Of a DNA stretch of 50,236 bases, positions 1-50,236 are shown piece after piece; the first letter of the stretch is position 1; each line of letters opens with the position of its first letter. The notes beneath the pieces were generated by a model, which saw only the letters and a program-made list of their open reading frames with translations, did not search any database and was not told the DNA's origin. Source of the DNA: Deltaproteobacteria bacterium (lineage in GTDB: Bacteria > Myxococcota_A > Polyangia > HGW-17); contig JAFGWM010000076.1 in assembly GCA_016937155.1 (NCBI GenBank), positions 1 through 50,236 on the forward strand, in the 5' to 3' direction. Made by a program: the position numbers and the translations under genes.

Positions 1-27
1 AAGGCAAACGGAACTAATTTTTCAAAA

Positions 28-86
28 CGCAACCCTGGGAGGGAGGAAAAATATGGGAAATGGTGAAACCTAACCCGGGTGGGTGG
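28..86 (-). repeat. Inverted copy of the C-rich repeat at left window end
   Basis: Read on the minus strand, 70-86 gives CCACCCACCCGGGTTAG, matching 15 of 17 bases of 50167-50183 at the other window end. A second diverged box, CCTCCCTCCCAGGGTT, follows 41 bp on (31-46), with pyrimidine-rich sequence between. The first box contains the stop codon and last codons of pgi. Confidence 0.7.
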
Positions 87-1716
87 TGTTATAGAAGTTG
101 AGGAGGCCGTTTGTTGAGGAGTCGTGGGTAGTAACAGTGTTTGAGGAATTCATGTCTTTTAGAATTTCCTTTGCCAGAACTTTTCCAAGTTCAACTCCCC
201 ACTGATCGAATGAATTTATGTTCCAGATAATTCCTTGAACAAATATTTTGTGTTCATACATGGCAATAAGCATTCCAAGAGTAAATGGATCCAGTCTGCG
301 GAATAGAAAAGAAGATGTGGGAATATTTCCTGGAAATGTTTTTGCTTTACTAAGCTTACGTCTAGTTTCCCCGTGATAACCCAATTCAGTTAATTCCTTA
401 ACTGCTTCTTCAGTAGTTTTCCCTCTCATTAAAGCTTCTGTCTGAGCAAAAAAATTAGATAACAATAGAGAATGATGAGCCCCAGTATTATTGTGTGAAA
501 AAACAGGGGCCAGAAAATCACATGGGATCATTCTTGTTCCCTGATGAATCAGTTGATAAAAAGCATGCTGTCCATTTGTTCCTGGCTCACCCCAAATCAC
601 TGGTCCTGTATCACAATCAACATCAAAGCCATCTTTATTTACTGATTTTCCGTTACTTTCCATATCACCCTGCTGAAAATAAGCTGGGAAACGATCCATC
701 GTCTGATCATATGGTAAAATTGCGTGAGTGGATGATTTGAAAAAATTGTTATACCAGATCCCAAGTAGAGCCATTATAACAGGAATATTTTTTCTGAACT
801 CAGTGTTTCTAAAATGTAAATCCATTGAATGAGCTCCTTTAAGGAGTTCATAAAAATTTTCCATTCCAACTGCAAGAGCAATACTCAGCCCGATTGCGCT
901 CCAAAGTGAATATCTCCCCCCTACCCAGTCCCAGAATTCAAACATATTATCTGGATTTATACCAAATTCCTGAACCTTTTCAGTGTTTGTGGACATTGCA
1001 ATAAAATGGCTGGACACATACTCCAACTTAGAAGCTTGATTCAGAAACCAGTCCCTAGCAGTATGTGCATTTGCCATAGTTTCCTGTGTTGTAAAAGTTT
1101 TTGATGCAATGAGAAAAAGAGTGGTATCAGGTTGCAGATTTTTCAGAGTATTTATTATATGTGTTCCATCAACATTAGACACAAAATGAAATTGTATGTC
1201 TTCGGTAACATACGGAGCGAGAGCATGAACAACCATCTTCGGGCCTAAGTCACTGCCTCCTATTCCAATATTAACCACATCAGTTATTTTTTTACCAGTA
1301 TACCCTCTCCAAGCGCCACTTCTGACCATTTGAGTAAATTTTTCCATCTTACCCAGAACTCTGTAAATATCATCCATGATGTTTTTGCCATCAACAATGA
1401 TTCTCTTATCAGATCTGTTTCTTAAAGCAGTATGAAGAACACTTCTGTCTTCTGTATTATTAATCTTTTCCCCGAGGAACATTTTTTCTATGTTTTCAGC
1501 CAGTTTTGCTTCAGTGGCAAGTTCGACCAGTAATTTTACAGTTTCATCGTTGATTCGATGTTTTGAAAAATCGAAGAGCATATCATTAATGATGATACTG
1601 TATTTTTTAAATCTATCAGGATCACTTTCAAACATATCTCTCATATGTATGGGTGAAATCTTATTATAGTGGTTCTCTAATAATTTCCATGAGTTCAACT
1701 CTGTTGGTTTAGTCAT
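70..1716 (-). CDS. pgi: Glucose-6-phosphate isomerase
   Basis: Cytosolic enzyme interconverting glucose-6-phosphate and fructose-6-phosphate in glycolysis and gluconeogenesis. The 548-residue length matches the long bacterial and eukaryotic-type PGI family. Visible signatures are GIGGSDLGP for phosphosugar binding, [13 protein letters not shown] (PGI signature 1), [11 protein letters not shown] with the catalytic-glutamate region, [14 protein letters not shown] with the catalytic histidine, and QWGVELGK near the C-terminus with the catalytic lysine. The ATG is preceded by AGGAG at good spacing and overlaps the end of msrA by 8 bp, so the two are probably co-transcribed. Oddity: the last codons (Thr-Thr-His-Pro-Gly-stop) are formed by the C-rich repeat found at both window ends, so the natural C-terminus may have been altered by that repeat. 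The functional call is secure. Confidence 0.97.
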
Positions 1717-48339: not shown

Positions 48340-49911
48340 TCAGTTGTACGAAACCCTGATATATCCATCAGATGATTTTACTCTGACTTTTGCTGGCTTA
48401 CGGAAGGTGTATAAAATAAATCTCTCCCCATTTTTCTTCTTTATAACTTTTACTTTTCTTAAAATTTTCCTGTCAGGAGAGTGAATTCCTTTTAAAAGTT
48501 CTGACTTCGCAGTTGTATCAATTACTATTCCTGGAGGTGATGCCAGAAAATAATGAGAAATTCTTCCTGCGCTGCCACCTAGCGGAATACTGATTTGCTT
48601 TATTTTCCCATTCAATTTGGCAGAGAGTGCTCTTACCGAATTTTCTTTTTTTAGCAAAGTTGGCGATTTATTTTCGGAAGTTTTTACCTCCGGTTCAGAA
48701 ATGGTTTTAACTGTTGGGTTATGAACAACCTTTACCGGATAAGGTGTTCCCTTTTCGTATGGGATTGCCATATTTCCATTTATCATCCCCGCAAGTTCAG
48801 AATCGTTTGGCTCTGAAGCTACTTTGCCGGATGAACCGGATGACCACGCTCCATAACCAAAAAATATGATTCCAGCTATTAACACAATTCCTGTGGCCAG
48901 TTTTGTCAGTGGCCATGGACTTTTTACACCGGCTATTGGAAATGTATCATTTCTTACCATTGGAGCCGGAAACCGCATTTCAGAACTTAACTCAGGAATT
49001 GTATTTCCGGATTCTCTGTATTTACGGTTAAAATCCTCTATTTTATTTTTTTCAATTGCCGGCTCGAAATTACAAACTGGATTCTTTTCAGAGGATTCAG
49101 GTTGTAAATCAGGGTTAATGGAACTACTGACACCATCTGTTGGAGGAGGCGGAACGTAATCAGTTGTTGAAGTTGAAGACATTTCTTCGCTTTCAAAAAT
49201 CCCCTCTTCCTCCTCATGCCAGCACTGAAGAGGTTGAGTTGAACGTCGGACAATTTCTTCACCCCAGCTTTCCAGAGAAAATTCTATGCCCATTTTCACA
49301 GATGGTATTCCACCAACATTTTCAGGTTCAAATTTCAGCCAACTGATTCGTCCTTCCTCCATTTGCCCGTTAGGCCCATCGCAGATTATTTTCTGCCCCG
49401 TTTTGAGAAAAGGAAGAGCAACCGTCAGATGCATCCCCGCAGCATTATGAGAAATGAGATTGCCCGAGAGATGCTGGGTTTCTGGAATCTGAATATTTAC
49501 TTTTGGCGGTGAAAATCGCATAGCATCATCAGGCAAAGAGTTGAACGTACTGTAATGTCTGGCATATTCATTATGCATCGTTATAATACGTCTTATTCTT
49601 TCCAGATATTCATCCTTTATATCTATGAATTTTAATCCCATACCCGGAGTTGGCATACTACCCTCAGGACCGGGTCTGGACCAGATTACTCTGGCTCTAA
49701 CCACTATTTCCTCTGGAGCATCTCCCGGATCAAACCTGACAAGTATCTCGGTTCCTGTATCCAAAGGATAGGAGGTTTGAACAAAAATTCCCCCTTCACC
49801 CAAATCGAGCATTGAAAGAATCTGATGAGGTGAATCATCAGAACTTTGACATTCGACAGCACCAAGCACTGGAATTCTCTGATTGTGGTCTTCACTGGTA
49901 ACAATAACCAT
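48340..49911 (-). CDS. PilZ-PilZ-TM-AMIN fusion protein
   Basis: 523-aa membrane protein. Residues about 5-112 and 130-225 are two PilZ-type domains. The first has LDLGEGGIFVQT at the usual DxSxxG place, with Gly instead of Ser, and only one Arg of the RxxxR motif. The second lacks the motif, so c-di-GMP binding is doubtful. A Pro/Ser-rich acidic linker leads to one membrane helix at about 338-356. The outer region ends in an AMIN-like domain (about 435-523: ISIPLGGSAGRISHYFLASP, GIVIDTTAKSELLKG), which in other proteins binds peptidoglycan or places secretin/amidase complexes. Start 49911 chosen for AGGAG nine bases upstream. First gene of its operon. Confidence 0.8.
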   Translation of the reverse strand: MVIVTSEDHNQRIPVLGAVECQSSDDSPHQILSMLDLGEGGIFVQTSYPLDTGTEILVRFDPGDAPEEIVVRARVIWSRPGPEGSMPTPGMGLKFIDIKDEYLERIRRIITMHNEYARHYSTFNSLPDDAMRFSPPKVNIQIPETQHLSGNLISHNAAGMHLTVALPFLKTGQKIICDGPNGQMEEGRISWLKFEPENVGGIPSVKMGIEFSLESWGEEIVRRSTQPLQCWHEEEEGIFESEEMSSTSTTDYVPPPPTDGVSSSINPDLQPESSEKNPVCNFEPAIEKNKIEDFNRKYRESGNTIPELSSEMRFPAPMVRNDTFPIAGVKSPWPLTKLATGIVLIAGIIFFGYGAWSSGSSGKVASEPNDSELAGMINGNMAIPYEKGTPYPVKVVHNPTVKTISEPEVKTSENKSPTLLKKENSVRALSAKLNGKIKQISIPLGGSAGRISHYFLASPPGIVIDTTAKSELLKGIHSPDRKILRKVKVIKKKNGERFILYTFRKPAKVRVKSSDGYIRVSYN

Positions 49912-50120: not shown

Positions 50121-50236
50121 TCACCCACCCTTGGTTAGTTTTTCCCTCTTTTTCCCTCCTCTCTTTCAACCCACCCAGGTTAGTTTTTTTCACCTCTTTC
50201 CTCCTCTCTTCTTACACGCCCAGGTTAGTTTTTCCC
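50121..50236 (+). repeat. 45-bp tandem repeat at right window end
   Basis: The motif GGTTAGTTTTT begins at 50133, 50178 and 50223, exactly 45 bp apart. Each is preceded by a C-rich box (CACCCACCC, AACCCACCC, ACACGCCCA) and followed by a pyrimidine run (CCCTC...CTCCTCTCTT). Copies one and two are complete and diverged; copy three is cut by the window end. All repeats are strongly pyrimidine-rich on the plus strand and contain no open frame. Confidence 0.8.

Follow-up and report, generated by a model that had tools for sequence, protein, structure and literature searches.

A short C-rich repeat at both edges of a bacterial contig is probably the terminal inverted repeat of a Y1 transposase family

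Why does a stretch of bacterial DNA begin and end with what appears to be the same short C-rich repeat? This question is raised by the window analyzed here, 50,236 nt that represent the whole of contig 40 in a genome of 85 contigs (4.11 Mb, 95% complete). A first-pass annotation of the window had described a repeat with a period of 45 bp at the right edge and an inverted C-rich box at the left edge. It had proposed a dispersed family at which assembly stopped on both sides or, alternatively, a replicon-end or recombination element. We arrive at the following account, to which we assign a probability of about 0.8 as a whole: a core of ~15 nt, consisting of a C-rich box and GGTTA[A/G]TTTTT, is the terminal inverted repeat (TIR) of a family of Y1 transposases, and both edges of the window are such ends.

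At the right edge the exact 45-bp recurrence was confirmed: GGTTAGTTTTT is found at 50133, 50178 and 50223, and at least three copies of it occurred in none of 100 dinucleotide shuffles (shuffle mean 0.01). Tandem Repeats Finder reports the same region (50123-50236, period 45, 2.5 copies, score 135) as the top array of the window. The array runs into the contig end; three units are what the contig contains, and sister arrays have up to 14 units. It is located ~0.2 kb upstream of the start of a gene for a PilZ-domain protein. An Rfam scan of the window gave nothing at the gathering threshold. At the left edge ACCCACCCGGGTTAG lies inverted at 70-84 with 0 mismatches. The statement of the first-pass annotation that both edges carry the same repeat applies to the ~15-nt core, but not to the subfamily, which is type D on the left and type A on the right. 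The left-edge core is single and not part of an array. Since it continues into a sequence (GGTTAGGTTTCACC...) unlike that of the right-hand unit, it belongs to another subfamily with only the ~15-nt core in common. The ~69-nt interior of this type D end is shared with contig ends 50R, 53L, 65L and 69L.

Table 1. Position and strand of the repeat features and neighboring genes in the window.
Feature	Coordinates	Strand
Type A array, three 45-bp units (ACCCACCC[A/TT]GGTTAGTTTTT + pyrimidine-rich spacer), cut by the contig end	50123..50236	+
Core of unit 1 (GGTTAGTTTTT)	50133..50143	+
Core of unit 2 (GGTTAGTTTTT)	50178..50188	+
Core of unit 3 (GGTTAGTTTTT)	50223..50233	+
Type D element end: core at 70-84 (minus), then ~69 nt of element interior	1..84	-
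PilZ-domain protein gene (PF07238)	48343..49911	-
Phosphoglucose isomerase gene pgi (PF00342)	70..1716	-

The repeat is not unique to these two spots: when the whole assembly was searched, as the first-pass annotation had suggested, the core AGGTTAGTTTTT was present in 85 exact copies in the 4.11-Mb genome compared to 4 for its reversed control. Allowing at most one mismatch, CCCAGGTTAGTTTTT was found 131 times in the window genome, while among the 39 genomes compared two others had 1 and 2 copies and 36 had none. We then considered both ends of the 85 contigs, leaving out the masked contig 38 (two of 170 ends). An outward-facing core was located within the last 330 nt of 54 of the 168 readable ends, some of which are probably chance or degenerate matches (e.g. 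9R, 23R, 85R), and an inward-facing core in 8 of 168. In a control stretch 1000–1330 nt inside the contigs the outward core was present in 2 and the inward core in 4 of 164 cases. The difference between 54/168 and 2/164 indicates that the repeat stopped assembly, in line with the dispersed family originally proposed. At both edges of the window identical end copies elsewhere in the genome would have halted the assembler, which would explain the breaks of this assembly at core sites.

Some contig ends in the window genome (G000) share other kinds of sequence. The ends C8L/C83R (L079, L218), C75L/C84R and C76L/C78R have ~36-nt repeats in common (e.g. GTTTCAACTCCGTGCCGGTGGCACGGTCATTTAGGGC) with unlike spacers, and these look like CRISPR arrays that also break the assembly. 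The end sequence shared by C27R/C28L and by C5L/C6L resembles, by eye, other transposase genes, so that ordinary insertion sequences look to be a further source of breaks. The pairs C18L/C81L and C74L/C52R each end in an identical array unit and are probably contig neighbors across an array.

The position of the repeat at contig ends could also be produced by an assembly artefact or adapter-like low complexity. We regard the chance of this as negligible, given that the core and arrays with other spacers are found in the independently assembled genomes G190, G144, G264, G039 and G020 as well as inside contigs. The replicon-end alternative, i.e. telomere-like repeats of the GGTTAG type, agrees with the outward direction of the cores. 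However, tens of contig ends (54 of 168) carry the core, several classes of ends continue past the array into shared element sequence, and some arrays are flanked by unique DNA on both sides, as at L072, which has a gene region to either side. We therefore consider it very improbable. A comparison with phages gave weak matches only, located in the gene flank of L072.

Sorting the element ends by eye resulted in 16 ends of type A, 15 of type B, 5 each of types C and D, and 2 of type E. The right end of the window is type A and the left end type D. At every classed end with a core found at the junction, the core faces the element; 79R, without a core match in its last 700 nt, was placed in class B by its interior sequence. 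Seven of the 16 type A ends continue from the array into a shared interior and nine are cut inside the array, with 2 to 14 units visible. Going by the near-equal counts only, A and B on the one hand and C and D on the other are suggested to be opposite (left and right) ends of elements from two families. No whole element is present in the fragmented assembly of the window genome, where the copies are cut by contig ends.

To which gene does the core belong? A survey of 377 Myxococcota genomes with CCCRGGTTRRTTTTT gave matches in 13: 109 in the window genome, 26 in G190, 11 in G001, 5 each in G039 and G144, 3 in G264, 2 in G020 and a single one in six others. The reversed control occurred 10 times in total among the matches listed and 0 times in the window genome. 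In G264 and G144 the core closely precedes a gene whose product begins with MSAPRQI[L/I]PGSTY. Whole transposase genes between inward-facing cores were found at L265 and L266 (G144), L260 (G190), and L297 and L299 (G001); at L292 and L298 the pattern used detected an inward core on one side only. The transposase scores below the cut-off against both NCBIfam REP_Tyr_transpos (59.7 bits, cut-off 80) and Pfam Y1_Tnp (21.3 bits, cut-off 23), and it matches the sequence of the solved TnpArep structure (PDB 4er8), an E. coli protein, with an E-value of 0.0038 over residues 7–139.

The family is common, being found in 163 of the 377 Myxococcota genomes. The 27 aligned members are 289–318 aa in length. 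All 27 have FPxG[TS] close to the C-terminus; a strict [ST]NHxH (HUH) motif is present in 19 of them and Y..NP in 24. Both HUH and Y could be located in 17 members, and there they are 58–65 aa apart. We also searched genomes that encode related transposases for the cognate motif TCCCAGGTTCGATT (at most one mismatch), which occurs 4 to 11 times in G391, G164, G211 and G058 and once in G389; none was found in G206 or G028. Within the family, copy number of the end repeat is most extreme in the window genome, which has a core of its own. Judging from the sequences, we assign the core as the putative terminal inverted repeat of a TIRYT/TIRtron-like family encoding a Y1 (HUH) transposase of ~300 aa. 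The first-pass annotation was partly right in naming a recombination element, since the core probably forms the ends of a transposase-encoding element.

The window genome itself was searched for the transposase. No member was detected with PF01797, and a protein search returned 4 family members; the best among the matches listed (C7) shows 32% identity and has no inverted cores close around it. We built a family profile from 27 of 35 proteins, after removal of 8 duplicate, truncated or uncertain-start proteins, and compared it to 4930 contig-end peptides. The best match was the type B end 13L, DHDVYFPPGTNQMYETHGVRISQ, which aligns to profile positions 276–298 of 300 with an E-value of 0.013, a weak match because only ~23 residues are visible. 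The second was 82L, of no known class (E 0.1), and the third again a type B end, 55R (E 0.25). The distance from the stop codon to the core is 203–212 nt in five B ends; it is 204 nt at 13L, and 55R has a second core at 173 nt. In six fuller elements the closest core in range follows the stop codon at 197, 196, 207, 216, 204 and 225 nt, with extra cores at 183 nt beside the one at 204 nt and, for L260, also at 98 and 254 nt. As sequence, strand and distance of the B ends agree with the fuller elements, we read type B ends as the 3’ ends of the elements.

The two edges of the window differ in kind: the right edge is an array-bearing type A end, and the left edge a type D end of a second subfamily, inserted at the 3’ terminus of pgi. 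In the window the last codons of pgi and its stop codon (THPG*, with TAG from GGTTAG) are supplied by the type D insertion, and the protein ends with NFYNTTHPG*, compared to DFYKQHKR* in G001 and NHFKQLRK* in G003. G001 belongs to the same genus as the window genome and its pgi lacks the insertion, so the empty site is seen at that gene. When synteny around pgi was used to look for the C-end partner of the window's D end, the neighbors of pgi in G001 had no match at the contig ends of the window genome.

The core is also found in tandem arrays with differing spacers. In the window genome these have units of 55 bp (C18L/C81L), 47 bp (C53R), 34 bp (C16L) and ~19 bp (C74L/C52R), and arrays at internal sites on C13, C43 and C60 have units of 44–46 bp. 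Array units are pyrimidine-rich and mostly 44–47 bp, also 34–36 bp, in length. Successive spacers within a locus have a median identity of 0.58, compared to 0.35 between loci (35 pairs; 18 loci, of which five lie in other genomes; 1238 between-locus comparisons). Nineteen of the 35 within-locus pairs lie above the 95th percentile of the between-locus comparisons and 16 do not. The higher likeness within loci indicates that the core is common while the spacer is largely local.

Several arrays of the window genome are unusual in other respects. The type B ends C33L and C73L have tandem units of ~112–117 bp that extend into the element interior, and look as if copying ended at varying distances. 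At C22L and C50L (L090, L113) a core-like AAAAAATTAACCTGGGAGA is in frame within a repetitive open frame (EKINLGE), so the core may here be part of coding tandem repeats. C42R (L184) contains a dense array of CTCCCGGGTTATTTTTT and CTCCCTGCTTTG units in which all three minus frames are open.

Direct repeats (at least 13 nt, spacing 14–75 nt) were counted near the family genes at 28 loci, 10 duplicate, truncated or uncertain-start loci having been removed and three G001 loci added. They were present in 7 of 27 windows 0–200 nt upstream (5’) and in 8 of 25 windows 150–350 nt downstream (3’) of the genes. Altogether 15 of 52 terminal windows contained such repeats compared to 5 of 234 other 200-nt windows, the latter including those 0–200 nt downstream, which overlap the terminal downstream windows by 50 nt. 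Growth of tandem copies at the element ends is thus characteristic of the family.

By analogy with TnpAREP, the transposase would nick single-stranded DNA at the core and move the element. Where the nick is followed by copying or by strand exchange, as may happen at some ends, the core and adjacent DNA might be left in tandem, and repeated rounds would lead to direct arrays with a common core and locus-specific spacers. That the transposase drives the duplications is inferred, and ordinary slippage could do so. In this alternative the element ends contribute the core, and the tandem copies arise by replication slippage at a pyrimidine-rich site with a T-run, without participation of the transposase. 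The pyrimidine-rich units, the small length steps (mostly 44–47, also 34–36 bp) and L266, where the 3’ flank is duplicated without the whole core, are in agreement with such passive minisatellites, to which we give somewhat less than an even chance. Slippage is harder to reconcile with duplications at the termini of one transposase family in unrelated genomes, GC-rich ones included (15/52 vs 5/234 windows), and with loci that share the core but not the spacer. Extending the transposase-driven mechanism, the enzyme might be a dedicated minisatellite generator that re-nicks its own terminal repeat and copies the core together with ~15–40 nt of neighboring DNA in tandem, a tentative idea that we think rather unlikely. 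If it were true, a locus-specific array would grow wherever the core lands, in intergenic regions and possibly within coding sequences.

A Y1 transposase between inverted repeats calls to mind REP/BIME systems in the strict sense, i.e. a RAYT with GTAG-tagged hairpin repeats. The protein resembles REP_Tyr_transpos, and the repeats are clustered and dispersed about 100-fold. However, no 5’ GT[AG]G tag was present in the cores examined, the arrays are head-to-tail, and the element itself seems to be multicopy in the window genome (16 A and 15 B ends). A hairpin is likewise no general feature. Of 38 loci, 6 have AACC-N6-GGTT upstream and 5 have it downstream, compared to 2 and 1 for the next best spacing; the three loci from G001 are closely related, and some matches lie away from the termini. 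Of ten hand-picked ends three folded better than shuffles at the core (z below -2). With these caveats and the mixed folding, a REP hairpin was rejected as a general feature, and we judge REP/BIME sensu stricto to be an improbable explanation.

Other candidates were dropped as well. For IS21 (IstB) as owner of the ends there were three matches to PF01695, one of them short (at C70) and the other two within longer frames, and none was shown beside a core end. An insertion sequence with simple TIRs and a short target duplication was rejected: the DNA outside the core is varied, though often C-rich, and no duplication could be defined with the ends unpaired. Retroelement-like tail repeats and a spliceosomal-like GT...AG appearance, both considered by eye, were abandoned once the transposase with inverted cores had been found.

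Among known systems, IS200/IS605 would have Y1/HUH chemistry in common with the family. Its TnpA is about 150 aa and, unlike the family described here, lacks the long C-terminal domain. Known IS200/IS605 members have no terminal inverted repeats according to the available text of Nunvar et al. 2010 (PMC2817692). As far as that text describes REP/RAYT and BIMEs (REPtrons), they resemble our elements in having a transposase gene between two inverted short dispersed repeats that are clustered nearby. They differ in that our family is without the GTAG/GTGG tag or a general hairpin, and its repeats are direct rather than alternating. With TnpAY1 subclasses 2.1 and 2.3, in the accessible parts of Quentin et al. 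2018 (PMC6006769), the family shares the NH[YF]H and WE motifs, a C-terminal extension and the absence of REPs. The HUH-Y spacing of 58–65 aa fits most TnpAY1 subclasses including 2.1, in contrast to ~110 in 2.3, and the proteins are longer (289–318 aa) than those of 2.1 (median 238). Those parts report no REP-like repeats for either subclass but do mention TIRs in some 2.1 members; our family, in contrast to both, has dispersed end repeats.

In published descriptions, non-REP Y1 transposases mostly come without their own dispersed repeats. The family described here is common in Myxococcota, and its terminal repeats do spread and amplify. This offers a testable origin for bacterial tandem-repeat families with a common core and differing spacers. 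In the openly accessible literature covered, none of the papers listed was found to connect such transposases with Myxococcota or with minisatellites sharing a core, and the term “Myxococc” is absent from the text of PMC3733652. The closest known system is the TIRtrons/TIRYT, as far as the accessible part of that paper describes them (Di Nocera et al. 2013, PMC3733652): Y1 transposases flanked by inverted repeats, where some end repeats are dispersed families with dimers and clusters. The same part states that REP clusters may form tandem reiterations that take in flanking DNA of varying length, and that GGGGWSAS is common to many TIRs while other TIRs are unrelated, so that the motif is not obligatory. 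Compared to this description, our elements likewise have a Y1/HUH transposase gene flanked by inverted repeats that are unrelated to GTAG REPs, dispersed and clustered. They are distinguished by the core [C-rich]GGTTA[A/G]TTTTT, compared to GGGGWSAS in the TIRs that share one motif, which is absent from the cores examined, by a protein of ~300 aa, and by large head-to-tail arrays with locus-specific spacers. The kind of element is known, while its member in the window genome and the tandem arrays of that member look new.
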